Positions 5,790 through 55,449 of a stretch of 64,000 nt of DNA are shown here, piece after piece; positions within the stretch are counted from its first letter, which is position 1, and each line of letters starts with the position of its first letter. The stretch comes from Hydractinia symbiolongicarpus (Eukaryota > Cnidaria > Hydrozoa > Anthoathecata > Hydractiniidae): the NCBI RefSeq assembly GCF_029227915.1, contig NC_079885.1, positions 10,469,001 through 10,533,000 of the forward strand, in the 5' to 3' direction. A program made the translations under genes and the position numbers. The notes under the pieces are model-generated. The model was not told where the DNA came from and did not search any database. It worked only from the letters and a program-made list of their open reading frames with translations.

Positions 5790-6152
5790 TATAATAATAA
5801 TAGAATAAATGCGCTCAAAAATATTGAAATATGTAACAAGAACATAAAAACACTCAAAAATATTGCCGAGATTTTTCTCGGCACTGTGCGATAACTAGTA
5901 GTTTTCGAAAATTTACGTTTGAAGATATACAGGTTAATGGACTTGGAAATAATGTAACAATGATAATGGTTATTTTCTGAACATTAATATTTTAACCAGA
6001 GCTGCTCCTCACAACTTGATAATATTTGAGATTACATATAAGATTACATATAAGCTATTTTGATGGATCATGGTGTGTGGTACACATAAGTACAAAAGTA
6101 CGGAGCGTCATATCTGTCAAAAAAAGCACCACTACTTTCACTGTTTCTTTAT

Positions 6153-6380
6153 GACGTCCTGCGGATCTGTAGGACGTCCTACGGGTGTCTAGGACGTCCT
6201 GCAAACTTCTAGCACGTCCTAAAAATCTGTAGGACGTCCTGCAGCCCTCTAGGACCTCCTAAACACCTCCAGGACGTCCTAAATACCTCTAGGACGTCCT
6301 GAAGATCTCTAGGACGTCCTACGGATCTCTAGGACGTCCTAAATACCTCCAGGACGTCCTTAAGATCTCTAGGACGTCCT
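6153..6380. repeat. Left subterminal array of AGGACGTCCT palindromes
   Basis: There are twelve copies of GACGTCCT-type units at an exact 20-bp spacing, each unit ending TCTAG, TGTAG or TCCAG so that AGGACGTCCT (a perfect 10-bp palindrome) recurs every two helical turns on one DNA face. Spacers vary while the palindrome is kept. The array runs from inside the terminal repeat to about 90 bp before the transposase start. It could be a transposase binding array, a promoter element (the core ACGTC resembles bZIP sites), or both. Confidence 0.8.
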
Positions 6381-6473
6381 GTCACGTGGAACCAGGTTTA
6401 AAGTATAGCATTTTAGCTTTCGACCAAAGGGGATATTATCGGCAGTGCGTTTTGTCTGTTATGTCGACATTGA

Positions 6474-7752
6474 ATGTGGATTTTGACTAATGTAAAAGAA
6501 TTTAGGAAGAAGGACTTGCAAGGAACGGATTGTGGTGAGTGGCTTTTCATGATTTTTCCCGTTTCTTTTCTTCATTCAGTAAATGTATCATTTGTATTTT
6601 CTTTATCTTTAGACTTGGGAGACATTGTCACTTATTTTTTTCGTTGTGGATATCAGTATAAAGACATTTTAGAACTCTTGCGCCGGTACCACGATATTTC
6701 AATCAGTATGAGAACTTTGCATCGCTTTTTAAAGGAATATGGCCTAAAGCGAAAGTGTGCTGATGTATCAACATCCACGATATTAGACAAGGTCAGACAA
6801 GAGAGTCAGGAAGTTGGAGAAAACCGTGGATACCGTAGTATATATCAGCATTTGTTAGAAAAAGGAATACAAATACCAACCAGGTTAGTTAGAGCAGCTT
6901 TAAAAGAGCTAGACCCATCTGGTGTTGAAAGGAGAACAAAGCATCGATTGAAAAGAAGGGTATATAGAACAAATGGTCCGAACGATGTCTGGTACATTGA
7001 CGGGAACGATTAATTGAAACCCTTCGGGCTTTGTATCCACAGTGGAATCGACGGTTTCAGTCGTAAAATTATTTGGCTAGCTGTTTCAGACACAAACAAG
7101 AACCCATTTATTATAGCTCACTATTATACTAGTGCAGTGAAGACTTTATGTGCCGTGCCAAAATTAATTAGAGGGGATAGGGGGACAGAAAATCCAACGA
7201 CTCCTTTGAAGAAATCATCATGATTCATGGAGTGGTTGGATCAGTTTCAAGCACGGAAAATATGTATCAAATCAACGAATAGAGCAGTGGTGGTCATATT
7301 TGAAAAGAAATACCACTCAGTCTTGGATAGATTATTTAAAAGACCTGCGAGAACAGGGACTATATGACGACAGCAATAACATTGATGTTGAAGCATTGAA
7401 GTTTTGTTACTACGGTCTCATTCAGTTACATTTAGATCAAGTTAAACATACTTGGAATCACCACAAGATAAGAAGTACAAAATATTCAGAAAGCCCATCT
7501 GGAAGACCTGACTTAATGTTTTTTCTACCACACAACTACAATGCCATAGATTGTGCATTCGTATTCAATGCAGACGAGCTCGAATTGGCTGAATCCATGT
7601 ATTAAAAAAAACCTCGAGCTATTCCTTGTCAGAATGAGTTTATAGAACTATCAAATATTTTGATGGAAGAGCAGAATTTGCAGCATCCGCGTTCACGCGA
7701 AGAGGCTGAACATATTCATTTATACCTTGTATCGACAATAGAAATGTTGTAA
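6474..7752 (+). pseudogene. DDE integrase-like transposase, broken (copy I)
   Basis: The gene encodes an integrase-core (RNase H fold) protein of the kind scattered in cnidarian and fish genomes. A likely 78-bp intron lies at 6,535-6,612 (GTGAGT...TTTAG, frame kept). The N-terminal part has a helix-turn-helix-like segment (DILELLRRYHDISISMRTL). Then come WYIDGND with the first catalytic Asp, the GIDGFSRKIIWL strand, RGDRGTEN with the second Asp, and a region encoding NQRIEQWW with the candidate Glu. Breaks relative to copy II are a Lys-to-stop at 7,011-7,013, a 17-bp deletion near 7,195 that shifts frame, and a Ser-to-stop at 7,603-7,605. The palindrome array lies just upstream. Confidence 0.8.
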
Positions 7753-8372
7753 TTTTAAATTTTATTTCTAAAATTTGTGTGAAATAGAAATGAAAAATAC
7801 GTACAATTTTATATCTTAAAAAACTGTACTTCAGTAGTAAAAAGAACAAAAACAAAATGATACAATATAAATCACGTCAGAACTTAACAAACATATATTT
7901 AACAAAACACAACTGAGTCTTATTAAACCACGTAACCTTATTGTGTACTTTTGGATCTTGTCGGTGATGACTCAACCACAAGAAATGTCACAAGTTAAAG
8001 GGGTCATAGCCAAAAAAGGAAAGCAAATTTTGAAAAATTTCTTCGAAACCAACAAGAATAATCTATCGTTATAAAAAAATACACATTCAAAAATAAAACA
8101 AAAATAGAATATACTTCCAAAAATACGCTGTTTCATTTTGCTAAAACTATTTCCTTTCAAAATAAGGTAAAAATACTACACAATGTGTCAAGCAAATATT
8201 TAAACCTATGTATGAAAATTTAAACAAATAAATGTTAAAGACTAAAAAATAACATACTCTTTTCCGTAAGTTAACAAAAAGATTCCTAAAAGACTAAAAA
8301 GATATTGTCTAAATAAGAACAAAAAGTGTGTTCACATAAACAGAGTGTATCTAAAAAGTATGAAATTCAAAA
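7753..8372. other. Intergenic region between convergent transposon genes
   Basis: This is AT-rich spacer between the 3' ends of the transposase and the SAM-HECT gene, and it holds their presumed 3' UTRs and polyadenylation signals. It is shared with 35,142-35,760. No open frame of note is present. Confidence 0.6.
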
Positions 8373-9290
8373 TCAATCAAGAATACTTAAACCATCATAC
8401 ACAGACCAATGGCCATTGCTGTTGAAATGGACATTCAAACTGGTTTGAAATTGCGTAAATGATCGAAATTGACGTGGTAGGATTAAAATTTTGAAGCATG
8501 TTTTCGCTAGAGGATACAAGCATTTTGGATTCTGATCAACAAATTCAACTTTTATTGAAGACGTAGGTAACAATTTTGACGATCCTGTTATAAATCTAAC
8601 CAATAAAAGCAACTCTGATTTTGTACAACTTCTAATATAGCGATTAAGATATGTGCTGATTATTCGGTCCTGTGGGCATGTTTCATTAAAAAAAATCTGT
8701 TCAATTAGTGATTCTGCAGTTGGAGTACAAGTTGAATAAAGTGAATCAATCATACTTTCACTCAATTTCTGCAAAAATGACCCCATACCTTCAACAATAT
8801 ATTTCATTGGTAGATATGGTCTGTTTATCAAAGCAGTTTTTGCAGCTTTCAAACATAATGCCAATACGTTATTTGGTTTTGGCTTATCGAAAACGTTATA
8901 ACTGTAAAGGACGTCGACTAAAGGTTGATTACTTGTCTCTTCTTCTTTGGAAAATTGCAATATTGTTTCTGTCTCATATGGTGTGACAAAATTGAGAAAG
9001 GAACATAGTAATTGTTGTTTATCAACACGATCAAACAAAAGTTTCTTCACAGTGCTTTTACACAGTTGCAAAGGGAAAATAGCATACTGAATGAAAGCAT
9101 GGTTTACAATACTTCCAATTATTTCCAACTCCTCTTCATCAACACAGTCATCAAGTGGTACTTTTTCCATAACACCGTTCATTTTCTCAAAAAGTTTTTT
9201 ATAAAACTCAGCATAACAATCCTTTCCAACACCATCTCCATAAGCTTCCTCGCCACTAAATCTAAATGCAGCTTTATGTGAAATAGTTCC

Positions 9291-10766
9291 ACGCTTTTTG
9301 TAAATATCAATTAACTTTTGGTACACATTATCTCTGGAAATATCAAAATACAAAGTAGAGTTATTTAGCTTTGATAGTTCATTTGCACGAAAGTCTTGCA
9401 GGCTATCAAACTCTTTTTTAGATTCACCAGATTTGTATTCCAACAACATTTCTGACTGAAGATTTCTATTTTCAACAAGATTATCATTCACATAATTCTT
9501 TTGTTCAGCAACAGTTGGTGGAACAACATCGTCATCATCTGATACAGTGATTGTAGCATAACCACGAAACCCAACTGTTCCACCTGGTGTCATAGGTGTT
9601 GGTGTTTCCTCTTCATTAACATTAAATATGCCAGAGAATACTTTTTCATCTGGAGAAACTTTGTGTCGATCAAAATTGATTAGGGTAAAATGTTCTGGCT
9701 GCAAAGATAGTCCTCCAACCCAATCATACTCCTGAGTAAATTTAGCAGTATCATGAAATAGACGTGCTTTATTTCCTATAACAGGATGGCGTATGGATAT
9801 TGTGACATGTGCCTCACTAAGATCAGGTTCTGGCATGACTCGATTCTTTCTTATGTTCATAATATCAATTAACCGACGTTCTTTTACTGCTACAGTATCC
9901 TCTATTTCTTCAGTTTCATTTAACAATGATTGTGGTTGTTTATTTTCGTTTTTAACATCACCTTTCTTTTTATCGGCCTCTAGTGACGTATTATAAGCTT
10001 CATCAATTTCATCTCTCAATCTTTTGCGTTCTACGGATGAACCTAACAGAATAGGACGGTTATTATCTTCATCACCAACTAAATTAATATTAGCAACTTT
10101 ATGAGTATTGAAAGGACTTTCAAATAAAACATCGTCGTCTTGGTCATCCTCAAAGATATTGCTCTTTAACTTTGTGAACAAACTGGACAAAATGGATTTC
10201 TTTTTTATTTTGAGATAAATGCGAATATGTTTCAGATTATGTTCTTTAACATAACTCTCTAATGTCAAATCATCACTTAGCTTGTCACCAGAGAAACTAC
10301 CAACATAAGTTTCAAACAGTGACAATGAACCCAAAACTGGATTGTTATCCTTTGGAAAAAAGGTTTTATGCAATTGTTCTTTTATACCACTCATAGTAAT
10401 GTCCCGAGGTAAGGAAAGTTTACTGGATCCACCAGTGCATTTCACATAAGAATATTTTTTTAATCTCTCATTAAAGTTCTGCAAACCAACATTTACAGTA
10501 AATGAAAGTTTATTTGGTTTCTCCATTGCATGACCATTTCTAATGGCAGCAGCTAATTCAGCCTTAACTTTATCTTTTTTACAGTCAGATAATTTGGCTT
10601 TACCATGTTTTGTATAAGCTCTGACGGCAAGGATATCTCCTAATGCTGTCAAACCCATTGATTTCATCATTTCGTCAGTGGATGCATTAATAGCTTTGTT
10701 CTGCCCAATCTTAAAACGAGCCCCGTCTTAAGACTGGCCAGGCCAATCTTCTGACAGTGATAAATG
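9291..10766 (-). repeat. Lower copy of 1,476-bp tandem duplication in the SAM-HECT gene
   Basis: It matches 10,772-12,247 at a constant offset of 1,481 bp with about one noticed substitution (near 9,465/10,946). A 5-bp filler, CTACA, separates the copies. The unit includes about 90 bp of the left end of the MITE at 12,178, so the duplication happened after the MITE insertion. Unit II does not have it. Confidence 0.9.
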
Positions 10767-10771
10767 CTACA

Positions 10772-12247
10772 ACGCTTTTTGTAAATATCAATTAACTTTT
10801 GGTACACATTATCTCTGGAAATATCAAAATACAAAGTAGAGTTATTTAGCTTTGATAGTTCATTTGCACGAAAGTCTTGCAGGCTATCAAACTCTTTTTT
10901 AGATTCACCAGATTTGTATTCCAACAACATTTCTGACTGAAGATTCCTATTTTCAACAAGATTATCATTCACATAATTCTTTTGTTCAGCAACAGTTGGT
11001 GGAACAACATCGTCATCATCTGATACAGTGATTGTAGCATAACCACGAAACCCAACTGTTCCACCTGGTGTCATAGGTGTTGGTGTTTCCTCTTCATTAA
11101 CATTAAATATGCCAGAGAATACTTTTTCATCTGGAGAAACTTTGTGTCGATCAAAATTGATTAGGGTAAAATGTTCTGGCTGCAAAGATAGTCCTCCAAC
11201 CCAATCATACTCCTGAGTAAATTTAGCAGTATCATGAAATAGACGTGCTTTATTTCCTATAACAGGATGGCGTATGGATATTGTGACATGTGCCTCACTA
11301 AGATCAGGTTCTGGCATGACTCGATTCTTTCTTATGTTCATAATATCAATTAACCGACGTTCTTTTACTGCTACAGTATCCTCTATTTCTTCAGTTTCAT
11401 TTAACAATGATTGTGGTTGTTTATTTTCGTTTTTAACATCACCTTTCTTTTTATCGGCCTCTAGTGACGTATTATAAGCTTCATCAATTTCATCTCTCAA
11501 TCTTTTGCGTTCTACGGATGAACCTAACAGAATAGGACGGTTATTATCTTCATCACCAACTAAATTAATATTAGCAACTTTATGAGTATTGAAAGGACTT
11601 TCAAATAAAACATCGTCGTCTTGGTCATCCTCAAAGATATTGCTCTTTAACTTTGTGAACAAACTGGACAAAATGGATTTCTTTTTTATTTTGAGATAAA
11701 TGCGAATATGTTTCAGATTATGTTCTTTAACATAACTCTCTAATGTCAAATCATCACTTAGCTTGTCACCAGAGAAACTACCAACATAAGTTTCAAACAG
11801 TGACAATGAACCCAAAACTGGATTGTTATCCTTTGGAAAAAAGGTTTTATGCAATTGTTCTTTTATACCACTCATAGTAATGTCCCGAGGTAAGGAAAGT
11901 TTACTGGATCCACCAGTGCATTTCACATAAGAATATTTTTTTAATCTCTCATTAAAGTTCTGCAAACCAACATTTACAGTAAATGAAAGTTTATTTGGTT
12001 TCTCCATTGCATGACCATTTCTAATGGCAGCAGCTAATTCAGCCTTAACTTTATCTTTTTTACAGTCAGATAATTTGGCTTTACCATGTTTTGTATAAGC
12101 TCTGACGGCAAGGATATCTCCTAATGCTGTCAAACCCATTGATTTCATCATTTCGTCAGTGGATGCATTAATAGCTTTGTTCTGCCCAATCTTAAAACGA
12201 GCCCCGTCTTAAGACTGGCCAGGCCAATCTTCTGACAGTGATAAATG
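10772..12247 (-). repeat. Upper copy of 1,476-bp tandem duplication in the SAM-HECT gene
   Basis: This copy is directly joined to the gene's own upstream exons and MITE. Its coding frame (12,151 to 10,667) covers SAM end and linker up to the start of the HECT domain, then reads into the MITE fragment and ends after about 30 unrelated residues. It therefore encodes a truncated protein without the catalytic lobe. Confidence 0.9.
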
Positions 12248-12928
12248 GGCGGCCAGTCTTAAGACTGGACTGCCCAATCTACGGACGTACATGTCCACTC
12301 GTAGAACGAATGTGGAAGACAAAAAAAAGAATAAAACATTTTGACTGTAGCTACAGGAACTTTAGAATGAAACTTTTCCTGCAAATCAAAAGGCTAAAAA
12401 ATTATACCATGTAAACTATTAAAACATATTAGCTAGCTAGCTAGCTAAACTTCTCATCCAATGAAGTTACCAGCTAGCTAACTAACTAAATATGGTTAAA
12501 TAAGATTTATCTGACTCTTCATATATAAACATTTTTCAAAACTTGGCTACAACAAACTGTATGAAAATGCTAAATGTATAATAGGTGCTATAGCCACACA
12601 GTTAGTTGGCTAGCTACGATTTTTATTGTGTCCAAAAACTGGCCTGGTCAATTCAACAGTACTGGCAAATTCGTTTTTTGTGGTGTAGCTAAATACTCCA
12701 AATATGATTTTTTAATGTGCTTAAAAATGTTTGTTGGATCTTGGAAATAACAGAGCTTGTGTGGCACATCCCTTCTTTAGAATCTAAAAGGCGTCTGAAA
12801 ATGGGCCTTACATGGTCTCCTGCCTAATCTTGTGAGGCACTGCCCAGTCTTAAGACTGGCCGGCTAGTCTTTAGACTGGGCATTTTTATGTCCAAAGATT
12901 GGGCAGTGTCCTAAGATTGGGCAGAACA
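12178..12928. mobile_element. MITE with GCTT target duplication inserted in the SAM exon
   Basis: The terminal inverted repeats are TGTTCTGCCCAATCTTA on the left and its complement on the right. The four bases GCTT flank both sides (12,174-12,177 and 12,929-12,932). Removing the element and one GCTT rejoins the SAM coding frame exactly (minus strand ...GATGGTGAAGC/TATTAATGC...). The interior has further palindromes of the form CCAGTCTTAAGACTGG near both ends (about 12,255 and 12,845). No coding sequence is visible, so it is non-autonomous. Confidence 0.85.
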
Positions 12929-13487
12929 GCTTCACCATCCATCTGAAACAGACAATAGAAATAATAATAAAATGTTTGGATATATTATTATCTATCTATC
13001 TACCAAGTGGTAAGAAAATAAAATTATTAGTAACTAATACCTTGTTGGTTCTCAAAGTATCTACTGTAGGATTGTCCACACCTCTTTTATTCAGAAATTG
13101 GCAGATCTATAAAAAAACAAAAAAGTCGGGGATCAGACAGAACAGTTTAGCTAGCTAAACTTTTCAGTTTTGATAGCTATGCAGCTAGCTACAAAGTAAA
13201 TCACAAGATTTGGATATCTCAATACGGAAATGACACACTTTATATCCTTAATTACTTACTTCTTCGACTGACACTGTTGCCATAATCAATATAGTCCTTT
13301 CTGCGTCCGTGTCAAAGGAAAGCAATATCTTGTTAAAATCAATTTGTCACAATGTCATTATTCAAAATCGCAGCCATTAGAGCAAATACGACATTAGTAT
13401 TAAAAAATATAAGCTTAAAAAATCTTCTTTGCTTCTTCTAATATTATTAGTTATACGTAGACGCCACAAAACCATGTGGATATTCCC

Positions 13488-13978
13488 TAGGACGTCCTAG
13501 CGATCTCTAGGACGTCCTAGAGCCCGTAGGACGTCCTAGATATTCCTAGGACGTCCTAGAGAACCTGTAGGACGTCGTAGAGACCCTTAGGACGTCCTAG
13601 AGAACCTGTAGGACGTCCTAGAGCCCCGTAGGACGTCCTAGATATTCCTAGGACGTCCTAGAGAACCTGTAGGACGTCGTAGAGACCCTTAGGACGTCCT
13701 AGAGAACCTGTAGGACGTCCTAGAGCCCCGTAGGACGTTCTAGATATTCCTAGGACGTCCTAGAGAATCTGTAGGACGTCCTAGATATTCTTAGGACGTC
13801 TTAGATTCACTTAGGACGTCCTAGAGGCCCGTAGGACGTCCTAGAGTCCCGTAGGTCATCCTAGACACCCTGTAGGACGTCCTAGCGCCCCGTAGGACGT
13901 CCTAGAGTCCCGTAGGTCATCCTAGACACCCTGTAGGACGTCCTAGAGGACTGCAGGACGTCCTAGAGATTTTTAGGA
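13488..13978. repeat. Right subterminal array of AGGACGTCCT palindromes
   Basis: About 24 units of GACGTCCTAG plus a 9-11-bp spacer ending TAG follow one another, with periods of 19-21 bp. A block of five units (about 102 bp) is repeated in succession near 13,530-13,735, showing expansion by unequal exchange. A few units are mutated (GACGTCGT, GTCATCCT). The array lies about 200 bp upstream of the SAM-HECT start, mirroring the left array's place before the transposase. Confidence 0.85.
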
Positions 13979-14386
13979 CACTAGAATTTTAAAGGCATGC
14001 TATAAGAGCACATTTAAAGCGTGCTTAATAATGTGAACGCATTTTTGCTTTATTAAAATGTCTTTCAAATTATGTTTACTTGCTTTAAACATGTTTTAAA
14101 TGAAGCAAAAATAAAGAGTGCTTCGAGGCACTCTTTATTTTTGCTTTAGCTGCTATAAGTGCATAAAACAATAGAATGAAAATTATGCACAAATATTTGA
14201 GTATTAAAAGTAAGGATTTTGAGCGGGTATTATGAAAGTGAAAGTTCATTCGTATGTGAGAAAAACAACAACATGAACGTTCTGTTTTAAATTTTGTTTA
14301 TAAATCTCCCTTTGATGTTACAGGCAACTTGCTTTAGTCAAAGCATGCTTCATTTTTATACTAAGCATGCTTTATTCTAGTGTGAA
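13979..14386. mobile_element. Possible short element with CACTAGAA ends and central hairpin
   Basis: CACTAGAATTTTAAAGGCATGCT at the left and, inverted, AGCATGCTTTATTCTAGTG at the right resemble terminal inverted repeats. A hairpin lies between them. Only the right part is shared with units II and III (38,615-38,658 and 56,225-56,268), so the left part came with, or after, the loss of the transposon's right end. The target duplication is not clear. Confidence 0.3.
14103..14146. repeat. Perfect 19-bp-stem hairpin
   Basis: AAGCAAAAATAAAGAGTGC is followed by the loop TTCGAG and the exact complement GCACTCTTTATTTTTGCTT. It is unique to unit I. It may be the centre of a palindromic miniature element; nothing suggests a gene. 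Confidence 0.8.
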
Positions 14387-18300: not shown

Positions 18301-20825
18301 ATGGAACTCGAATATGAATTGCTTGTAAGCGGTTTAAGTTGTTTTCATTGTTATGTTTCGTGTATTTTACTCTCGTTATTGGGAATTCTTTTGCCATATT
18401 TGCGCGCATGCAGCTACTCCAACACACACTCATGCGTTAGCATTCTGGTAGAAGTCTACAACAGAACTTTTTGCTACAATGTAGTTGTTGTGTATGCAAT
18501 GTATGCAATGTAGCAGTTTAATTTCTTTTATTACATGTTTGTTTCAGGTGACAAATATGATGGGTATTGAATGGATGAGACGCCATCTTGGTGAAAAGTA
18601 TAACCTTCATGTTTTGTCCTTCTCGCCTCCAGGTAGCATGCATATTGACGCAACAATTAACACAGTTAGAGAAGGCTTAGTGATCGTTAACCCTGACAGG
18701 CCATGCAATGAGCTAGATATCTTTCAAAAAGCAGGCTGGAAAATAGTGGAAGCACCTAGACCTGCTAAACCTGACTCGCATATTTTGCGGATAAGTAGCC
18801 CTTGGATAAGTATAAATGTGTTATTGTTGGATGACAAAAGAGTAATCGTGGAGAGTTCGGAAGTACCAACACAAAAAGTATGTTTTCTACCTTTTTTAAT
18901 AATTAGTCGTAAGCCAGTGGAAATTCTCAGGAATTAACCTGCCATTACTTTCCGTTAGCATCTTTGGGTATCATAATATAGACAGTAGTCGTGATTCGTG
19001 AAAGAATTCACGGGGTCGCCTGCCAGTAAATTATACACTCTGAAAGGAAACCAGAATAAAACTGCGCCCAATCATTTTGCACAAAATATGGCTTTTATTA
19101 CAAAGACTAGCTGACTAGCCAATATTATTTATTTTGCGTTTCCTTGAATGTCCAAAACTTAATCGTAACAGCGGGCTGAGCTCTTAGTATATACAGTTCA
19201 ACCGTGTGACCAATCCATAAAGGCGTAGTACCCTTTTTTAGAAAAACTTTATCACAGCTTCAGTTTAAATTGAATTATAGGAAACAGTCTGTTTTCTAAC
19301 AGCAGGTGAATGGCTTAGTACAGGTAAACCGTGTACCACATGTATAGCTATGGGTGTAACACCCTTTTTCCAAAAAAAAATTTATCACAACTTCAGTTTA
19401 AATAAAAACACAGGTAACAGCCTGCCGTTACTCGTCTACCTAAAAAATCACACAGCGATTTTATTTTCTAGAATAAATTTTCACGACAGTAATAAAAGGT
19501 GAACCTAACTGCATTAAGCGTAAGGATTACTAATTAAGAAATTTGTTTTGTCAAACTTCATTTTACTATTTTCACTTTTCAGCCAGATGCAGCTAATAAA
19601 GAGCTATCTAGATAGCCACATCTCCAACATAAAAATATACAATAATATAACTAGCTGAATAAAAAATTTAAAACAATAGGAATAAATAAGAATAGCTATA
19701 CCTAGCTAACTGGCTTCAGCAGTACACTGCTTCGAGATCTACGTTTGTAGCTAAAATCATAAAACTGATTGGTTTAAGGTTTTACATGGTTAGAGAGCAT
19801 GATGATATATTCATCTTAACATATAAAAACGCACAGACAATAAATATTCCTATAGATACAAAATATAGAGAAGAGGAGATCCGCAAACCTCATACCATAA
19901 ATTTTCAATCAAAATGGCCCTCGTGAGCCTAATTAATTAGCTTAATCAGGCATATCTCTTGTTTCTTCATAAACGCGTGCTCTAAGTCCAGTTGGAAGAT
20001 AGCTATCCGAACTTTCAAATGTATTGCAAATAAGTACTTACCCTATATTTCTATTTTTATTTATATTTATTTCTATTTTCATTTATAATTTAGTAATTGC
20101 CGCAAATAATCACGAGTTGTTCAATATTTTTGTTTCAAGGTTATTTACTTAGGAAAATAAAGAAGACTGCTGAAATTGCAGTCAACTTATCTTTTTCATA
20201 TAGGGATAGGTAAACCTAAAGGGAGGGGGTTTCCACGAAGCGAATTAAACGGTGAATTCGCCGGCGAATTGTATCTGTGTGTGCATAGTTTTGTTTGTTA
20301 TGATTTTGCTTCACAAAATTTGCTTTGGCGTGAAGTTTCTAAACAGTTTCTAATCTTTAGCGGCGAAATATTTCTCTCTAAACTTTTAACCAATTAAAAC
20401 GCAATATTCAGTGTTTATTCTAAAAAAAAATAATTATTGAAAAGAAATTAACAAGAGTGTTTACATTCAGTATTTTAAATTCCTCTCATGCTTTTTGTTT
20501 CTCGTGGAAATCAAAAAGATGTTTCGCTTTGTACAAAATGTAAAATTCGAATTTTGCGAGAATTAATGTTCGCCAACACCGAGTTTCGCAAAAACCCACG
20601 ATTTTCAGAAAATTGTTTCCATTAAGGTACCAATTGTATAATGATGTAAAGAAAATGCAAATGAGTAAGCCGATGATTTAGTACTACTTCTCTTTTCAGA
20701 TGTTTGAATCACTTGGTTTTACCTGCATTAAAGTAAATATGGAGCATGCTAATGTGCTAGGAGGAAGTTTTCACTGCTGGACATGTGATGTAAGAAGAAC
20801 AGGAGAATTGAAGAGTTATTTTTAG
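15301..20825 (+). CDS. GATM: Glycine amidinotransferase, copy I (exons 2-6, all open)
   Basis: The product transfers the amidino group of arginine to glycine, making guanidinoacetate for creatine, in the mitochondrial intermembrane space of animals. Exons are 15,301-15,591, 16,112-16,333, 16,435-16,572, 18,548-18,877 and 20,700-20,825, all phase 0 with GT/AG borders. They give 368 codons against about 423 in the human enzyme. The first exon with the import signal is not found. Landmarks are [47 protein letters not shown] (active-site Asp), [11 protein letters not shown] (His) and [12 protein letters not shown] (nucleophile Cys). The second half of intron 5 and exon 6 appear to lie in Helitron-derived DNA. 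This is the only copy here without a visible defect. Confidence 0.92.
17991..18524. mobile_element. 534-bp insertion specific to GATM copy I intron 4
   Basis: Units II and III read CATTTTATTTC directly into TTTTATTACATG (near 42,230 and 59,850). In unit I, 534 bp intervene, flanked by TTTATTTC and the similar TTAATTTC, a possible 8-bp target duplication with one mismatch. The right end has a short GTATGCAAT repeat. I see no terminal inverted repeats or coding domain, so the class is unknown. Confidence 0.55.
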
Positions 20826-22235
20826 ATTCGTCATTATTTTTTAACTTATTTAACATACCAGTTAATTAAAAAAGATATGGAGTGAGAGATGAGTGTTTTT
20901 TTTTATGTCAAGGATTTTCTGTTTACATTTATAACATATGTAACATTTTTATGCCAGTGTAAGATAAATTGTGTCATTTTTTTTGGTGTTTTTTTCTTTA
21001 TCTCTTACATAACTTGGATACCATTGCAATTGCGACAGTTAAAAAAATTTTGTAGCCATAATGGTCATGAACTTCTAAAAAAACTGTGGCTTTTTTAATG
21101 GTGACCAAGCACGTAGTATTGTATGTTGCGCTTAATATCCAGGTCTTGATTAAAATTAGCTTGTTTGCTGTTAACATAAGCCTTTTCCAATGCAAGAAAG
21201 GACTCCAATGAGGAAATAAAAGTGTGCCAAAGTAGGGATTTGAAATCGCCAAAAACAATGTCGACTCTAAGTGAGATTTGGAGGTGACGAAAATTTAGGC
21301 TATAGCGTCTTTGTTTTTCTTTAATTTTTTGCACATCATACAGTTATGATATGTTGTGCAAAATATTTTACTTTCGACAGCATTTTCTGCTGCAGAGCAT
21401 GCTACCCAAGAATCTTTCATAAAAAAATTCTTAGTGTTGAAAAATATGACTGTTTTGTGCTTCCCATGTGCCAAATCTTTCTGAAAAAACATGCATTAGC
21501 ATTTTGTGATGCATAAACATATAAAAATGCGGTAAAACTCTATTATAAAGTTCAAGGACATCTTCATGTGCACACATAACAACTTCTCACCATCTTTTAA
21601 ATCTTTTTTCAAAGCATGTAATTTAACACCCTTGCAAACTAATCTTGTTTAACAGAAGCAGATTGACCAGGTGACAAATTAGTAACAATTTCTGCCCATT
21701 CTGGGTTAAAGTTAAAGTTAAGGTAATCCACCAGTCCTTGTTAGGACTCTGTTCGAAGCTTGTTTTGATTTCAACAAATAAATGCAGGCCCTTGGCCTTA
21801 CAACTGGGAAAGCCGATGTTTAACTACAGTTGCATGCTCTCTGACATCGGCCATATTTTTGTCTCAAGTAGGCTCATCGCTACGTAATAAAATGAGAGAC
21901 ATCATCACAATGAGATCAATATTGCACAATATATAATGAGTTTGCGGCAAAGATTAACATATATCCTAAAACTGGGAGGTCTATAGCCTGCTGGTGGTCT
22001 TAAGGTTGCCGACGAAAAAGCAAAACTAAATGCATTATTGTATACCCTAATATACCCTTTTACTTGAGATGAATTCCTGCTTGATAATTCACGTACTTCA
22101 GTAGAAAATTCTGCTAATGCAGAGACATTGTGACAACACTTAACATAGCTGTGATTATTAAATTTATTCCATAAAATTCACATACAATATTAAAAGGTTT
22201 GCTCTACGGCGGACATTTGCTCACTCATACAAAAA
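19111..22235 (-). mobile_element. Helitron-derived segment enclosing GATM exon 6, unit I
   Basis: On the minus strand a Helitron Rep relic (22,200-21,540) is followed by non-coding Helitron body and then the 3' side in GATM intron 5. Units II and III keep the 3' end (CTAG preceded by a GC-rich hairpin); here the last 270 bp or so are deleted, leaving GACTAGCTGACTAGCC at 19,105-19,120. The body from the 3' end to about 19,930 is shared with the complete Helitron at 53,542-54,966. GATM exon 6 lies between that body and the Rep relic, antisense to Rep. Confidence 0.5.
21540..22200 (-). pseudogene. Helitron Rep (HUH) N-terminal relic, unit I
   Basis: The minus strand reads IRVYNNAFSFAFSS near 22,050, then, in broken frames, the equivalents of GYPDFTYLLLETQ and DRPDFVARVFKLHA seen intact in the inverted copy. 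Next is ELYNRVLPHFYM near 21,560-21,530, aligning with the H.H-containing HUH motif of rolling-circle Reps (usual form RGLPHAH). Frameshifts and stops are frequent and the helicase part is absent. A following 65-residue frame (21,492-21,295, KDSWVACSAAENAVESKIFC...) is conserved between units and may be more of the same protein, but I cannot name it. Confidence 0.6.
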
Positions 22236-29765: not shown

Positions 29766-29948
29766 CTAGACGAAACCCTCTAAAAATTCTTGCTAGCCTT
29801 ACAGGGTTCATATATTTGCTCGTTGCCGTTAGAAAACTAATTTATTAAATCAATGTGATAATGCTCATCTGAGAGTTGGCGAAAGCTCGCTTGCAAAAAA
29901 ATAAAATATATGAATTGTGGAGTTTTCATTTTATTTAACATCAATCAT

Positions 29949-30281
29949 TTAGATAGCTTCAGCAGACAATTCCCCATCTTCTTGTTCTTTCTCTGGCTCT
30001 TTAGGATTTTGTTTATATACATGGACAATCTTGCATGATTGAACGTATGTCCTAGCAGCATCGCGCGTGCAAAAGTGCAGTAGACAAGACCCCTAAGTAT
30101 GCCATTAAATCCTTAACGAATGGGTCTTGTTAAAAATCTTGCTTCAGGGCATCCACACCGTCGAGTTGAACAAAATTGTTCACATTCATTTTGAGTAGAG
30201 CTTATCGACGGATGCCTCTTTAGAACTCATTGCTTCTACAGGAGTATCGACTACATCAAAGACTTGTGCGGGTTCACTCAT
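29949..30281 (-). pseudogene. Decayed coding relic of unknown family, unit II
   Basis: This is the same relic as in the other units, here complete. The 31-residue frame starts at 30,281 and the basic/acidic tail ends GELSAEAI with TAA at 29,949-29,951, followed by AATAAA on the minus strand. Relative to unit I the tail has substitutions such as Ala to Val and Lys to Glu, while the first 31 codons are unchanged. Confidence 0.35.
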
Positions 30282-30719
30282 GTTTATTGTAACCTTTCGG
30301 TATTTAATAAAGCACCATTAATATCTATTGGCGCTAGAAATCATCAGAGAATTCTTTCAACACAAATTTTATATATGTAGATACTTCTTACTGATCAAAC
30401 TAACTTTTACAATAATAAGACAATTATATACAAAATTATTACAATAAGTTAATAAAGGGTTTTCATGTCTAGTGAGGTCTTCTTAACAAATGAGTGATTA
30501 AGGGTTTCCGCGCAGCGTGTTCTCCTCCGCCTTGCTGCCGTAAATGTATAGCAACTTTCGACGCGTCTCTTTGCGTACATTGTGTGTTGCCGAAGCAACA
30601 ATGTCACAAAACCTAAAGCAAGAATGCGTGAGCAAAATCCGCGTGTACATAATCGTCAGGACTACGTGCATTGTCATTTAATAGAAGTTTATTGATGTAA
30701 CACATTTGATTATTCTGAA

Positions 30720-31260
30720 ACGTAAAGGTTACCCTCGGACATGTTTTTGTTGCTCACATAGGGTTGGTATTGGTATAGTGTAGTCGTTTGACTACTTCCT
30801 CAAGTGATGAAGATGCACCATTTTCTCGATACAAGTGATGACAATGTGCCACTCTTTGCCATAATTAATCCAAGACATACCTTCAGTGAACTGTGCTTCA
30901 ATGCGCTCTTGTAGCGTCTTTGTATTGCAGCCTAGATACTCTTGAGAATTTAGTTTCTTGTCATGCCTAATGGCCTGGTATGACCTAACACGAACGCCAT
31001 GCGCAAGGTGTTTTATAGGATTACAAATAGGGCACTAATATTTTATCTTACCACAAGGACAAAAACTACTTCTTTCATGCTCAGCCCTAAATAAAGTTTC
31101 TCGCAGGAGAAAAAAGCACAACCGCTATGCTCCCTGCAGGTATTTTTCTACTTACCGCAAGGACACAGTTAACCGCCACTATGGTCCTACACCTACATTG
31201 TCTACAGGGCACTTCAGACGTTTCTCTCACGCTCTTTTAATTTCAAGACATTCAGCACAT
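30720..31260 (-). pseudogene. Zinc-ribbon plus HNH relic, unit II
   Basis: It corresponds to the relic at 690-1,260. The core reads GMSWINYGKEWHI followed by VIT rather than the usual DHI, and the stop replacing the second-block Trp is shared with unit I, so inactivation preceded the duplication. The region upstream of the core keeps the C..EH...C..C-like pieces. Confidence 0.5.
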
Positions 31261-32854
31261 TGCCACTACTGCGTTTGCTCACCCTAAAATTACCTAGAGA
31301 GCATTGTCCTTCCATGTCCTTTTGTGATTGGCTACAGGTTAGAAACAAAACTTTGAACATCTATTTTCGAAACAAAACCCACGTATGGGAATCTCTCAAG
31401 AACTTTGATTTTTGTTGTTGTTGTTGTTGTTGTTTATGCGCAATTTTCCTCGAGAGGTTTTTTGATTCAACTTCGAGTATCCCACACAAAGCCTTTGGTT
31501 TTCCATATCCATGATAGTATAGTATTAGTATCAAGGTAAGAACTTCCAGGGGTCGTTCCTACGCAGACATTTGGCACAAATTTTTGACTGACATTTGGCA
31601 CAATTTTACCGGCATGGCACAAGTGGTAAAAGCTGGGACGAGACAGCTCGGCTCACAATACTAATGCACTCGTTCGCGCATAACATATATTACTACTGCT
31701 CCACCACGAATATAGTATACTTTAAAGTTAGTATATACTCTTTTAATGTTATCTCTTCTTACACAATTCTATATGCATGTCAAAATTTATACAAAAAATC
31801 TCACTTATTCAACGAGGTGTGCACATATTTGAACAGTTTGTTTGAATAGCAGAGTTTTGTACTGGTGGAGCAAATTTGATCTTGTATATACTGCGTCATT
31901 AATGATTTCTATTGCTTTATAATTGATTACTTGCGTCATAATTATGTTGAATTGCATATTTAAATGCTAAAAAATTCACACGGTTTCGTTTTTGTTCTTA
32001 AATTGCAAAGGGGTCCTGTGCAAATACCGTCCTCTAAAACTTTACGTTTGTTATGGAACGCTGGAAGGCCTCGCTTTATTTTTAAAAAAACTAAAAAAAA
32101 TTCATATTACCAATAACACGAAATTTTATTAAGGCGCGGCTCCTACTAAATCAAAATTGCCCAGAGTGATTGATCTGTAAGATTGTGCAGCAATTCTCAC
32201 TGTAGGAATAAACAGATTAGGATAATAAGCGTTGTAATTATAGAAAATTTGAGCTTATGTAAAATTAATTATTTGATGCAATGCAAAGGATGAGAATTGT
32301 AAATTGTTCATTTCAACTGTGGCAGTGTTGTGTACGGATCGAAAAATTGTGTAGTGTCTCTCAAAATATATCTACCTTTAGAAACAAATCACAATATGAT
32401 GCATAGAGCTTTATCTAAATGTTATTCCTTTGCACTTCGATCAAACATCAGGGTAAGGTTACGTTTTTATGAATCATTTAATGTAGTCATACTAAATCAT
32501 CTTCTCAAGTACTTCATAGATGATGGAAATTCATGGAAATAAAACCCACTCGATCCATCATCTTTGCAGCACTTGGGAAGCTAATGCCCAGCTTTACTTA
32601 CAGTACTATCACTTATCATATGGTTAAGTTCTTCTCGCACCGTGATTGGCTAATCTACACGAAATATTTGCTATATCGTATGCACCCATGTTTCGATGAC
32701 ATGGTCAAATCATACTTTTAATAAAAAGAACTCTCGATATTACGAAGCGCCTTAATATATTATCTCGATTAAATTAACAAACTGAATTATGTCACTCATT
32801 CTTAAGGATACTATAGTCCCTTTATTTGTACGTTCAAAAGCCATGTTTCCTTAA
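31261..32854. other. Unit II sequence without recognisable gene
   Basis: It is collinear with 1,261-2,834, including a TTG-repeat variant (31,412-31,434). Nothing codes convincingly. Confidence 0.6.
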
Positions 32855-33311
32855 TCTATATAATAATACGCCAGTTCCGTGTCTCTGTGACAGGCAAAGT
32901 GGATGTATTGTTTTTACTAAAGAAACAGCTGCGGTAACATGTCACTTTTGCTAAACTTTTTTTTTTATTCTGTCTTTTGTGTGCTTTTTCAAATTGATTC
33001 AAAAATTTTTGTTTAAAAAAGTCACGGTTAATTTATTTTATTGTTCTCATTAAAAACCTTTGTGTAAATGATGTAAACTTTATGACACAAAGGTCACGGG
33101 TAATTAATTTTTATCATTCCCTTAAGCACGTGTCTACTGTTAAACTGTTAAATGAAAAAGATATTGGTTTTATTTATTCCCGCTTGAATGGAATTAATAA
33201 CAAAACGTTTTGACGAAAAAAACAATGAATTTTATGGTTAATTTCGCTCACTATTTCGTTGTTTTTTTATTCGGTATCTATAGTGGATTTTTCCACGGGA
33301 CTAAATACTAG
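32855..33311 (+). mobile_element. Helitron-like element, unit II array, first
   Basis: The 5' end is TCTATATAATAATACGCC as in unit I element 1, and the 3' part is as in element 5 (hairpin GTGGATTTTTCCACGGG, ATACTAG). It is a recombinant of those two or the ancestral single element. At 457 bp it matches element 5 in length. Confidence 0.65.
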
Positions 33312-33490
33312 TCTCTTTAATAATAACCGTATTCCGTCTGTCTGTCTCTGCGCAGACCCCTCCGCTGAGTTAGAAAATCATGCTGCAGAAACACGAATAT
33401 CAAATGCGATATATTTTTTATCCACTTTGTTGCATTGGGTAAATATAATGGACGGGCGAACCTGTGGATTTTTCCACGGGCAACGACTAG
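33312..33490 (+). mobile_element. Helitron-like element, unit II array, second
   Basis: This is the 179-bp counterpart of 5,439-5,617, with 5' TCTCTTTAATAATAACCG and 3' CAACGACTAG. Its hairpin is CTGTGGATTTTTCCACGG, with one stem change relative to unit I. Confidence 0.65.
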
Positions 33491-33662
33491 TCTTTATAAT
33501 AATAGCCGTATTCCGTCTGTCTGTTTCTGCGCGGACCCCCCGCTAAGTTAGAAAATGATGTTACGGAAAATATCAAAGGCGATATATTTTTATCCACTTT
33601 GTTGCGACGGGTAAATATAAAGGACGGGAGAACCCGTGGATTTTTCCACGGGCAACGACTAG
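33491..33662 (+). mobile_element. Helitron-like element, unit II array, third
   Basis: This is the 172-bp counterpart of 5,618-5,789, starting TCTTTATAATAATAGCCG and ending CCGTGGATTTTTCCACGG and CAACGACTAG. Confidence 0.7.
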
Positions 33663-34026
33663 TATAATAATAATAGAATAAATGCGCTCAAAAATATTGA
33701 AATATGTAACAAGAACATAAAAACACTCAAAAATATTGCCGAAATTTTTTCTCGGCACTGTGCGATAACTAGTAGTTTTCGAAAATTTACGTTTGAAGAT
33801 ATACAGGTTAATGGACCTGGAAATAATGTAACAATGATAATGGTTTTTTTCTGAACATTAATATTTTAACCAGAGCTGCTCCTCACAACTTGATAATATT
33901 TGAGATTACATATAAGATTACATATAAGCTATTTTGATGGATCATGTTGTGTGGTACACATAAGTACAAAAGTACGGAGCGTCATATCTGTCAAAAAAAG
34001 CACCACTACTTTCACGGTTTCTTTAT

Positions 34027-34274
34027 GACGTCCTGCGGATCTGTAGGACGTCCTACGGGTGTCTAGGACGTCCTGCAAATTTCTAGCACGTCCTAAAAAT
34101 CTGTAGGACGTCCTGCAGCCCTCTAGGACCTCCTAAATACCTCCAGGACGTCCTAAATACCTCTAGGACGTCCTGAAGATCTCTAGGACGTCCTACGGGT
34201 CTCTAGGACGTCCTAAATACCTCTAGGACGTCCTGTAGACCTCTAGGACGTCCTTAAGATCTCTAGGACGTCCT
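34027..34274. repeat. Left palindrome array, unit II transposon
   Basis: About thirteen AGGACGTCCT-type units stand at 20-bp spacing. It has one more unit (ending GTAGACCTCT) than the unit I array and a few spacer changes, so unit number evolves while spacing is kept. Confidence 0.8.
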
Positions 34275-34338
34275 GTCAGGTGGAACCAGGTTTAAAGTAT
34301 ACCATTTTAGTGCATTTTGTCTGTTATGTCGACATTGA

Positions 34339-35141
34339 ATGTGGATTGGTCCGAACGATGTCTGGCACATTGACGGGAACGATAAATTGAAACCCTTCGG
34401 GTTTTGTATCCACGGTGGAATCGACGGTTTCAGTCGTAAAATTATTTGGCTAGCTGTTTTAGACACAAACAAGAACCCATTTATCATAGCTCACTATTAT
34501 ACTAGTGCAGTGAAGACTTTATGTGCCGTGCCAAAATTAATTAGAGGGGATAGGGGACAGAAAATGTGAATGTATGTGGCATCCAACGACTCCTTCGAAG
34601 AAATCATCATGATTCATGGAGTGGTTGGATCAGTTTCAAGCACGGACAATATGTATCAAATCAACGAATAGAGCAGTGGTGGTCATATTTGAAAAGAAAT
34701 ACCACTCAGTCTTGGATAGATTATTTTAAAGACCTGCGAGACCAGGGACTATATGACGACAGCAATAACATTGATTTTGAAGCATTGAAGTTTTGTTACA
34801 ACGGTCTCATTCAGTTACATTTAGATCAAGTTAAACATACTTAGAATCACCACAAGATAAGAAGTACAAAATATTCAGAAAGCCCATCTGGAAGACCTGA
34901 CTTAATGTTTTTTCTACCACACAACTACAATGCCATAGATTGTGCATTCGTATTCAATGCAGACGAGCTCGAATTGGCTGAATCCATGTATTCAAAAAAA
35001 CCTCGAGCTATTCCTTGTCAGAATGAGTTTATAGAACTATCAAATATTTTGATGGAAGAGCAGAATTTGCAGCATCCGCGTTCACGCGAAGAGGCTGAAC
35101 ATATTCATTTATACCTTGTATCGACAATAGAAATGTTGTAA
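34339..35141 (+). pseudogene. DDE integrase-like transposase, 5'-deleted and frameshifted (copy II)
   Basis: A deletion joins the start region (GTGGATT at about 34,340) to GGTCCGAACGATG, removing the N-terminal 160 or so codons including the intron. Remaining are HIDGND (first Asp), GGIDGFSRKIIWLAV, RGDRG (second Asp), a frame starting at 34,566 with NVCGIQRLLRRNHHDSW and NQRIEQWW (candidate Glu), and the C-terminal part to EML at 35,138. One G is missing from a G-run near 34,555, shifting frame, and TGG became TAG at 34,842-34,844. The defects are independent of those in copy I. Confidence 0.75.
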
Positions 35142-35760
35142 TTTTAAATTTTATTTATAAAATTTGTGTGAAATAGAAATGAAAAATACGTACAATTTAT
35201 ATCTTAAAAAACTGTATTTCAGTAGTAAAAAGAACAAAAACAAAATGATACAATATAAATCACGTCAGAACTTAACAAACATATATTTAACAAAACACAA
35301 CTGAGTCTTATTAAACCACGTAACCTTATTGTGTACTTTTGAATCTTGTCGGTGATGACTCAACCACAAGAAATATCACAAGTTAAAGAGGTCATAGCCA
35401 AAAAAGGAAAGCAAATGTTGAAAAATTTCTTCGAAACCAACAAGAATAATCTATCGTTATAAAATCATACACATTCAAAAATAAAACAAAAATAGAATAT
35501 ACTTCCAAAAATACGCTGTTTCATTTTGCTAAAACTATTTCCTTTCAAAATAAGGTAAAAATACTACACAATGTGTCAAGCAAATATTTAAACCTATGTA
35601 TGAAAATTTAAACAAATAAATGTTAAAGACTAAAAAATAACATACTCTTTTCCGTAAGTTAACAAAAAGATTCGTAAAAGACTAAAAAGATATTGTCTAA
35701 ATAAGAAGAAAAAGTGTGTTCACATAAACAGAGTGTATCCAAAAAGTATGAAATTCAAAA

Positions 35761-37553
35761 TCAATCAAGAATACTTAAACCATCATACACAGACCAATGG
35801 CCATTGCTGTTGAAATGGACATTCAAACTGGTTTGAAATTGCGTAAATGATTGAAATTGACGTGGTAGGATTAAAATTTTGAAGCATGTTTTCGCTAGAG
35901 GATACAAGCATTTTGGATTCTGATCAACAAATTCAACTTTTATTGAAGACGTAGGTAACAAACTTGACGATCCTGTTATAAATCTAACCAATAAAAGCAA
36001 CTCTGATTTTGTACAACTTCTAATATAGCAATTAAGATATGTGCTGATTATTCGGTCCTGTGGGCATGTTTCATTAAAAAAAATCTGTTCAATTAGTGAT
36101 TCTGCAGTTGGAGTACAAGTTGAATAAAGTGAATCAATCATACTTTCACTCAATTTCTGCAAAAATGACCCCATACCTTCAACAATATATTTCATTGGTA
36201 GATATGGTCTGTTTATCAAAGCAGTTTTTGCAGCTTTCAAACATAATGCCAATACGTTATTTGGTTTTGGCTTATCGAAAACGTTATAACTGTAAATGAC
36301 GTCGACTAAAGGTTGATTACTTGTCTCTTCTTCTTTGGAAAATCGCAATATTGTTTCTGTCTCATATGGTGTGACAAAATTGAGAAAGGAACATAGTAAT
36401 TGTTGTTTATCAACACGATCAAACAAAAGTTTTTTCACAGTGCTTTTACACAGTTGCAAAGGGAAAATAGCATACTGAATGAAAGCATGGTTTACAATAC
36501 TTCCAATTATTTCCAACTCCTCTTCATCAACACAGTCATCAAGTGGTACTTTTTTCATAACACCGTCCATTTTCTCAAAAAGTTTTTTATAAAACTCAGC
36601 ATAACAATCCTTTGTAACACCATCTCCATAAGCTTCCTCGCCACTAAATCTAAATGCAGCTTTATGTGAAATAGTTCCACGCTTTTTGTAAATATCAATT
36701 AACTCTTGGTACACATTATCTCTGGAAATATCAAAATACAAAGTAGAGTTATTTAGCTTTGATAGTTCATTTGCACGAAAGTCTTGCAGGCTATCAAACT
36801 CTTTTTTAGATTCACCAGATTTGTATTCCAACAACATTTCTGACTGAAGATTCCTATTTTCAACAAGATTATCATTCACATAATTCTTTTGTTCAGCAAC
36901 AGTTGGTGAAACAACATCGTCATCATCTGATACAGTCATTGTAGCATAACCACGAAACCCAACTGTTCCACCTGGTGTCATAGGTGTTGGTGTTTCCTCT
37001 TCATTAACATTAAATATGCCAGAGAATACTTTTTCATCTGGAGAAACTTTGTGTCGATCAAAATTGATTAGGGTAAAATGTTCTGGCTGCAAAGATAGTC
37101 CTCCAACCCAATCATACACCTGAGTACATTTAGCAGTATCATGAAATAGACGTGCTTTATTTCCTATAACAGGATGGCGTATGGATATTGTGACATGTGC
37201 CTCACTAAGATCAGGTTCTGGCATGACTCGATTCTTTCTTATGTTCATAATATCAATTAACCGACGTTCTTTTACTGCTACAGTATCTTCTATTTCTTCA
37301 GTTTCATTTAACAATGATTGTGGTTGTTTATTTTCGTTTTTAACATCACTTTTTTTTTTATCGGCCTCTAGTGACGCATTATAAGCTTCATCAATTTCAT
37401 CTCTCAATCTTTTGCGTTCTACGGATGAACCTAACAGAATAGGACGGTTATTATCTTCATCACCAACTAAATTAATATTAGCAACTTTATGAGTATTGAA
37501 AGGACTTTCAAATAAAACATCGTCGTCTTGGTCATCCTCAAAGATACTGCTCT
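35761..37553 (-). pseudogene. SAM-HECT gene, N-terminally deleted (copy II)
   Basis: The minus frame is open from about 37,553 to the TGA before 35,761. It retains the linker and complete HECT domain (FSGEEAYGDGVTKDC..., YPLAKTCFKILILPRQF with the catalytic Cys). The first exons, SAM domain and about 190 codons are missing: coding sequence runs directly into the palindrome array at about 37,553, with a few bases of shared CTAG-type sequence at the joint. There is no tandem duplication or MITE. Without a start or promoter region it is probably dead, although the remaining frame is intact. Confidence 0.8.
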
Positions 37554-37773
37554 AGAGGCCCGTAGGACGTCCTAGAGTCCCGTAGGTCATCCTAGACACA
37601 CTGTAGGACATCCTAGAGCCCCGTAGGACGTCCTAGAGTCCCGTAGGTCATCCTAGACACCCTGTAGGACGTCCTAGAGGACTGCAGGACGTCCTAGAGA
37701 TTTTTAGGACGTGCTAGAAGTTTGCAGGACGTCCTAGACACCCGTAGGACGTCCTACAGCTCCGCAGGACGTC
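37554..37773. repeat. Right palindrome array, unit II transposon
   Basis: About eleven AGGACGTCCT-type units remain, followed by the right terminal repeat. The first units match 13,820-13,980 of the unit I array in order, spacers included; the last three are the ones missing from unit I. Confidence 0.8.
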
Positions 37774-37835
37774 ATAAAGAAACTGTGAAAGTAGTGGTGC
37801 GATTTTTGGCAGATATGACGCTCCGTACAAAAGTA

Positions 37836-39545
37836 TAAAAATATAATACCTACTTCCTTAACAAACAAATAATACCTAGTGTGAAGTGACAGGGTAATGA
37901 GAAGTGCGTAAGATTTGTTCAAGTTAACTTAAAAACGCAAACTAAGTTTTTTTAATAAACAGCTAAAAAAAGGAGGATAAGAGCAGGAAGAGAGAAAAAG
38001 CAATATTTGTTTATCAAGAAGACGTCTAAACGTTGGATTTGTTCTAAAGAGCAGAACTTCCAGGCATTCCGTCATCCAATTCAGTTTAATTTAAAAATGC
38101 ACTCCACTTAAAATGTCAAAATAGTGCTATAAAGCGAGGACGACACGATTTTTTTTCATGCGCATGCAAAGGGACTTGTTTCATTTCATGCTCCTGAACA
38201 TGTTGCGCATGTAGCTACCACAAAAACTAACAAACCTTTTTTACAAACGAAACAAGGAAAGATAGAATCACGTAACGGCTTTGTCGACCGAGAAGATGTA
38301 TCTGAAACGTGATAGCGGGCTCTTTGTGCGAAAACGTACCATCTAAAAGTTGGTTGCCATTAAGAATACGATAGCCCCTTAGAATTGAAATTATCAAAAT
38401 TTTTTTATTTTTTTTTACGGATGTAACTTCTATGCTAAGTTTCTAGTAAGTTTAAGAAAAATTATTCTATAAAAATGTTATTTTGATGGGATAAAACAGA
38501 AAAAATTTCTTTATAACATTATCTTGCCCCGAATATGAGTCACGAATTTTTTTTTTTTTAAACACACACACTCTGTATGAAAATTAAAGACTTTAAGTCA
38601 AAGACTTTTAGTCAAAGCATGCTTCATTTTTATACTAAGCATGCTTTATTCTAGTGTGACCCCCCCCCTAAAGTATAATGTTATACTTTCTTTTTATATA
38701 CTGTTCTTTTTAATATTTATTTTTTTATTGCCATCGTTTTTATTTGTACGTTTAGAAGCCATGTTTCACATTTATCAATACAAATTTTTAACTTACTTGT
38801 TTGTTTGAAAAAATTTTTCTCCGTTCCAGTTCTTTTTTTCACAAATTTATTTTCTTATATACTCGTAGAGAATTTATCAATGTTTTATAATATATAAAAA
38901 TGTTTTTAAAAGGGGACATGTTAAGGAGATACTTTGAATATACTGAACATGTGTCAAAAGGGTCTACCATATCTTTAAATATCTTCGTAATATACCAAAC
39001 AATTTTGCTACCAATATACGGCAAGAGTTTACGGTTTATATTATAAATGAGCGTAACTATTTTTAGCCACATGCTGAATGTAAACATTTTAAATGTGGGT
39101 GATGTTAATTGATTAATAGAAAATATGTGTCAAAAATGTGTTGTAACAACCTGCAGAGAATGGCAACACAATAAAACGTTTAAAAAAAATGTTGCTAGCA
39201 CAAAATTTGTTTATGCAACAAAATTTGTTCCTGCAGCAAAATAGAATGGATCTGTGTTGCAGCAACAATTTTTTTGTACCTAAGAAATTGTTGCTTATGG
39301 GCCACAACGGGTCTTTTACATGCGAGTGCAATGTATCATGTTGCATTTCATACACAGGAAAAGAATACCTCGTAACGCCCTAGCTTAAGAAACGATATGA
39401 GTTACAATTAATTGGCATATTTTTTATTGAAGCCGCAAAGTTGCTAAAAAGACTTATGCTTGCCATTTTTAATGCTTTTTTATAGCAACAAGCGACTTTC
39501 CTTGAATTTTTCACAAGTTAATGACTTTTTAGTTAATTATTTCAG
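37836..39545. other. Sequence upstream of GATM copy II exon 2
   Basis: Bases 37,836-38,600 are shared with unit III (55,450-56,210) and absent from unit I, where they were lost with the transposon's right end. They may hold the GATM promoter and first exon. A run of 9 C lies at 38,660-38,668. No certain exon was found. Confidence 0.5.
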
Positions 39546-46250: not shown

Positions 46251-46256
46251 AAAATC

Positions 46257-55439: not shown

Positions 55440-55449
55440 TACAAAAGTA
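55440..55449. other. Empty target site of the SAM-HECT transposon
   Basis: TACAAAAGTA occurs once here between flanks (ACACATAAG and TAAAAATATAAT) that border the element on both sides in unit II. Its single occurrence shows that unit III never received the transposon or lost it precisely. Confidence 0.85.

Follow-up and report, generated by a model that had tools for sequence, protein, structure and literature searches.

The accessory genes that some DNA transposons carry are informative about the ways in which these elements deal with their hosts. In the IS3EU/GingerRoot group the termini follow the rule TA..TA (PMC10045372), and in the TET+ IS3EU elements of fungi a TET/JBP gene is placed between the transposase gene and an oppositely oriented gene for an alpha-kinase (PMC12730594). 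In another system, RAG1 itself contains a RING domain with E3 ubiquitin-ligase activity (PMC4411706). We analysed a 64,000-nucleotide stretch of the Hydractinia symbiolongicarpus genome (contig NC_079885.1, positions 10,469,001–10,533,000; the window hereafter), which contains two copies of a DNA transposon that belongs to the IS3EU/GingerRoot group and has decayed. The element carries two convergent genes between terminal inverted repeats (TIRs): a transposase gene and a gene for a protein with SAM, UBX and HECT domains. Both copies are broken.

Ends, target site and palindrome arrays of the element

The window comprises three tandem segmental units (1–22400, 29767–46263 and 52473–64000), each with an amidinotransferase-like open reading frame (ORF). 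Copy 1 lies in the first unit and copy 2 in the second, and only copy 2 has both ends and a target-site duplication (TSD). Sequence comparison defines copy 2 as an internally deleted insertion of 3,855 bp (33973–37827) that starts with TACGGAGCGTCATATCTG and ends in the complement of TACGGAGCGTCATATCTG; both termini are intact (TACGG...CCGTA), and its ends can be aligned with each other over their outermost 163 bp with no gap. The TSD, CAAAAG, is present on the left (33967–33972) and on the right (37828–37833); its size of 6 bp is the cut that matches the TA termini, although cuts of 4, 8 or 10 bp also fit the sequence. The third unit retains the empty site, with one CAAAAG (55432–55455, from comparison of the units). 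Copy 1 has the same left end, with a TIR tip (TACGGAGCGTCATATCTG..., 6099–6148, + strand) directly preceded by CAAAAG at 6093–6098. Its outer right TIR is gone: the right palindrome array is interrupted near 13970 and is followed by other DNA from about 13970 to 14333, where the units match again. A further palindrome-rich stretch (CTAGAATTTTAAAGGCATGC ... GCATGCTTTATTCTAG, 13980–14385) is found where the right end and flank of copy 1 were lost.

The left flanks of the two copies are identical at 483 of 488 positions. Because these flanks match and the third unit has an empty site, copies 1 and 2 represent one insertion and not two: a single event with a 6-bp target duplication was multiplied by segmental duplication, after which the copies decayed differently. 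The first-pass annotation of this DNA had placed two convergent genes, each with a palindrome array just upstream, inside one pair of TIRs in copy 1. The gene arrangement and the arrays are borne out; the pair of TIRs is not, as the outer right repeat is missing. The start, annotated at 6101, is placed at 6099, at the TA terminus. That annotation had also cited the same architecture at 33975–37825 as a recurrence. We considered copy 2 as an independent recurrence and rejected it: judged from the flanks and the empty site, a single insertion was duplicated together with its surroundings, and copy 2, as a segmental duplicate, adds no independent support.

The palindrome arrays sit just upstream of each gene and form the inner parts of the TIRs. 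Their unit is TAGGACGTCCTA, repeated with a period of 20 bp (19–21 bp in the right arrays). With up to two mismatches allowed, TAGGACGTCCTA matches at 61 places in the window, of which 60 are inside four arrays and one lies elsewhere; shuffled versions of the window (n = 20) gave 1.9 matches on average and never more than 5. In copy 1, where the arrays were delimited by pattern matching and Tandem Repeats Finder, the left array (6150–6381) has 12 units, all 20 bp apart, and the right array (13488–13970, unit matches 13488–13965) has 24 units 19–21 bp apart, the outer TIR being missing beyond it. Pattern matching gives 13 units in the left array of copy 2 (34024–34275) and 11 in the right (37563–37776). 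As palindrome repeats must, the left array of copy 1 (window positions 6140–6385) folds as single-stranded DNA (z score −12.3). The equal helical phase of the units, which recur every two turns, suggests a row of protein-binding sites.

The transposase and the SAM-UBX-HECT protein

The transposase gene of copy 1 (6474–7752, + strand) encodes an IS3EU-type DDE integrase, as judged from the Pfam family rva_4 (E = 1.2e-32 for the copy 1 sequence translated through stops as X) and from the alignment of relatives. It is broken by stops near 7012, 7208 and 7604 and by a small deletion with a frame shift near 7190. An intron is predicted at 6535–6612; the first exon is likewise a prediction, and the full-length relative P0004 differs at the N-terminus. 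The catalytic residues Asp138, Asp197 and Glu238 are invariant in 19 aligned relatives. The search matched 684 proteins, and the closest among the best 120 of these is a full-length protein of 393 residues with 91% identity. In copy 2, an ORF and self-comparison identify a remnant (34347–35141, + strand) with the N-terminal part deleted. A PDB search with the transposase profile returned three weak matches only. In viral contigs, ten stretches fitted a transposase-profile pattern and 58 a HECT-profile pattern, none of which was confirmed. A search of genome contigs gave one locus from 20 stretches, a 3,811-bp contig of a sponge-symbiont metagenome-assembled genome, in which positions 1622–2520 hold a fragmentary IS3EU-like transposase (49% identity). 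This fragment is probably host DNA in the symbiont bin; inspection by eye, without a profile, of the contig's ORFs of at least 60 residues revealed nothing HECT-like.

The second gene of copy 1 runs on the − strand from an ATG at 13283 to a stop at 8373 and is broken by a tandem duplication and an insert resembling a miniature inverted-repeat transposable element (MITE). Its first exons are as first annotated, with GT/AG borders: SAM exon 1 (MATVSVEE, 13260–13283), SAM exon 2 (ICQFLNKRGVDNPTVDTLRTNK, beginning ICQF..., 13041–13106) and the start of exon 3 (MDGEA..., 12929–12942), all on the − strand. The third is cut by the MITE-like insert (751 bp, 12178–12928), which has 16-bp TIRs (TGTTCTGCCCAATCTT...AAGATTGGGCAGAACA) and a 4-bp flank duplication, GCTT; the relative P0001 has no interruption here. 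The tandem duplication (9291–12247, − strand) consists of 9291–10766 and 10772–12247, identical at 1475 of 1476 positions; the MITE-like insert was partly copied by this later event. The FAF1-like helix and UBX region lies at 9591–10049 and the HECT domain at 8373–9443 (the start is approximate, from the model range), with its catalytic-type cysteine in KTCFKILILPRQF, both on the − strand. In copy 2 a remnant with 596 open codons is left (35761–37551, − strand), from which the SAM domain and a first beta-grasp-like region have been lost. The best match of the protein, at 96%, is P0001, a 777-residue protein of H. symbiolongicarpus.

The domain order is SAM, FAF1-like helix-UBX and C-terminal HECT. 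With the exons joined by hand, SAM_2 scores 26.7 bits (E = 6.3e-6) against a curated cut-off of 20.5, and SAM_1 (19.7 against 23) and SAM_4 (16.3 against 23.6) fall below threshold. The HECT assignment (Pfam E = 2.1e-6) is also backed by Foldseek and by the structure model; the structure comparison of the whole-protein model effectively covers residues 422–765. Profile checks of both proteins thus agree with the first-pass assignments. The HECT profile search found 18 proteins. The aligned relatives are 34–68% identical to P0001, and the catalytic cysteine, placed by profile alignment on the TCF motif of AREL1, is present in all 16 sequences that reach the site, the 17th (P0127) ending earlier. 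P0139 (E = 2.5e-14, 22% identity) and P0003 were judged too distant for the family alignment and are not part of it. These distant HECT proteins, of which P0003 has a similar beta-grasp-like region, hint at a wider HECT family.

The first beta-grasp-like region spans approximately residues 68–169 of P0001. The helix-UBX segment matches FAF1 in the PDB profile search (E = 1.3e-6), its structure model has a mean predicted local distance difference test score (pLDDT) of 85.7 and the top Foldseek match is the UBX domain of FAF1 (E = 1.2e-4). Against the Pfam UBX profile, P0002 scores 12.9 bits, short of the cut-off of 21, and a PDB search with one 96-residue UBX piece found nothing. The arginine in strand beta-1 that is a rule for UBX domains (PMC10641518) corresponds, through the FAF1 profile alignment, to Arg92, which is invariant in seven of seven sequences. 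Pfam gave no UBA or UAS match in the second protein. The FAF1-like helix-UBX points to the p97 pathway, despite the lack of the canonical p97-binding loop discussed below.

Linkage of the two genes and their possible role

The HECT gene is enclosed by the TIRs and, as the empty site demonstrates, arrived with the insertion. Indirect evidence from two further genomes extends this association. HECT relative P0124 and transposase relative P0005 (second best listed) both report a longest contig of 32,612 bp, and HECT relative P0129 and transposase relative P0007 (fourth best listed) both report one of 8,858 bp. These are the two exact size matches among 17 HECT and 117 transposase contigs, where 0.083 would be expected from a smoothed size density (0.0001 and 0.0014 at 32,612 and 8,858 bp, respectively). 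The equal sizes of the HECT and transposase contigs imply that each of these two genomes has both genes together. The divergence order is also concordant between the transposase and HECT proteins. The first-pass claim that the HECT gene is part of the transposon is thus supported. It is probably a regular gene of the transposon lineage and not a local passenger, a conclusion that is well supported but not proven.

As the best overall explanation, which we nevertheless put at somewhat less than an even chance, the transposon would be helped to move by an E3 ligase whose target is a protein bound to DNA. An intact element would supply a transposase and a HECT E3 ligase. The arrays, which present the same helical face every two turns, could serve as a docking platform for the transposase or its partner. 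The ligase would meet a DNA-bound partner and ubiquitinate it; the likeliest partner is a transposase that remains clamped on the ends once strand transfer is complete, an alternative being a host repressor sitting on the arrays. The FAF1-like helix-UBX might then promote unfolding of the partner by Ufd1-Npl4-p97, whereby the DNA would be cleared for repair and re-expression. It is tentative, and a little more doubtful than the overall explanation, that intact elements have a working HECT E3 that acts on a DNA-bound protein with help from the p97 pathway. ClpX acts on the transpososome of phage Mu. By analogy, the lineage might carry a self-contained ubiquitin-p97 extraction machine that tags the clamped transposase complex and passes it to Ufd1-Npl4-p97 via the FAF1-like strut, an animal counterpart of the ClpX/Mu system; this more specific version we consider unlikely. 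Such a gene would open a question to experiment: does ubiquitination, possibly with p97, clear a transposase or host repressor from DNA during transposition?

Two sets of observations weigh against parts of this explanation. The FPR tripeptide of the S3/S4 loop occurs in none of the seven UBX sequences, so that the canonical p97-binding loop is absent. In addition, 15 of the 17 HECT contigs have no size match among the best 120 of the 684 transposases; eight of the unmatched contigs are under 6 kb and six are over 10 kb, and the latter slightly reduce the odds of the HECT gene being regular in the lineage. The first-pass annotation had named as a refutation that in other genomes the HECT gene never shares the inverted repeats with the integrase, or that only one of the two is present in intact elements. 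Applied indirectly, through contig sizes, this test did not refute the claim, with two size matches and 15 HECT contigs that have none.

Among the alternatives, the one that survives best, although we regard it as rather improbable, is a HECT protein directed against host silencing (an array repressor, or a Piwi-interacting RNA or chromatin factor), as an anti-silencing weapon with a role comparable to that of the TET/JBP genes of fungal IS3EU. Accessory genes of the fungal elements are thought to counter silencing (PMC12730594), and the SAM domain may be a partner-binding module; in such a conflict the binding part would be expected to diverge fast. Slightly less probable, and in our view unlikely, is a brake or dose control in which HECT tags its own transposase for the proteasome, limiting copy number and host damage with no extraction by p97. 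The location of both genes in the same convergent unit, and hence a similar dose, the conserved HECT catalytic cysteine and a UBX domain whose missing FPR loop speaks against a p97 role would all accord with such a brake; it would, however, leave the conserved FAF1-like helix and UBX fold without an obvious reason.

A different kind of alternative concerns the copies themselves, which might be uncollapsed alleles or an assembly artefact and not a tandem segmental triplication. The units are 96.6–99.7% identical in aligned segments and are mosaic: two left segments favour grouping of units 1 and 2 (6 sites versus 3 and 2, and 9 versus 5 and 3), the body on the right-hand side of the insertion places units 2 and 3 together (107 sites versus 15 and 9), and no grouping emerges from another two segments (2, 1 and 1, and 49, 45 and 39). 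The mosaic relations suggest that units 2 and 3 have exchanged sequence by gene conversion. There are three units and not two, with differing indels and intervening repeats, and we hold the allelic explanation to be quite improbable; it would in any case leave the reading of the element unchanged, an empty-site allele being equally good evidence of insertion. Least probable of all is that the HECT gene is a passively carried captured host gene or a resident host gene near an IS3EU insertion, which the host-type SAM, UBX and HECT modules, the broken state of the window copies and the absence of a size match among the listed transposase contigs for six HECT contigs longer than 10 kb would favour, but which is hard to reconcile with a gene that lies within the TIRs, arrived by insertion as the empty site shows, is tied to the transposase by equal contig sizes in two other genomes and keeps its catalytic cysteine at 34–68% identity.

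Among the other features of the window, the ORFs repeated in the units are located at 15292, 39537 and 57150, and a PDB search relates the first of them to L-arginine:glycine amidinotransferase (E = 1.6e-26). A reverse transcriptase fragment at 47072–47470 (RVT_1, E = 1.5e-11) is probably from a non-long-terminal-repeat element. The stretch 49008–52126 has inverted repeat copies at 19641–22195, 43607–46212 and 61222–63789 (71–85% identity), a repeat common to the units.

Comparison with known systems

The element shares with IS3EU/GingerRoot elements (PMC10045372) the TA..TA termini, the 6-bp TSD and the DDE integrase-type transposase and differs in its SAM-UBX-HECT gene and its arrays of 11–24 palindromes, either of which other IS3EU families may have. 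Fungal TET+ IS3EU elements are alike in their TAYGG..CCRTA termini, 6-bp TSD and an accessory enzyme gene opposite to the transposase, but they belong to another kingdom and carry alpha-kinase and TET/JBP genes in place of a ubiquitin ligase (PMC12730594). RAG-like (RAGL) transposons also combine a transposase with a convergent accessory gene within TIRs, whereas their transposase is unrelated, the TSD is 5 bp, the accessory protein is of the kelch/PHD type and a RING-type E3 is fused into the transposase (PMC7204232).

The second protein resembles the p97 adapters FAF1 and FAF2 in a UBX fold that is preceded by a helix bearing the motif E-DEAY..SLEAD..K (PMC12965308), but differs in its fusion to SAM and HECT domains and in lacking Pfam UBA/UAS matches and the FPR loop. 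With UBR5, HUWE1 and AREL1 it shares the HECT fold and the catalytic TCF cysteine; it is transposon-borne, has other N-terminal domains and is 14–18% identical to them (Foldseek). Hydrozoan SAM-UBX-HECT genes may be transposon genes and not host ligases, a caution for annotation, and if the extraction-machine reading were true, further SAM/UBX/HECT genes of aquatic animals might be transposon cargo. Neither a transposon-encoded HECT ligase nor a HECT domain together with IS3EU was found in the literature searched (titles and the beginnings of abstracts, with Repbase reports and most subscription papers outside this scope). Accessory genes are known in IS3EU elements; within that literature, a transposon-borne fusion of a HECT ligase with a p97-adapter-like segment would represent a new type of accessory gene.

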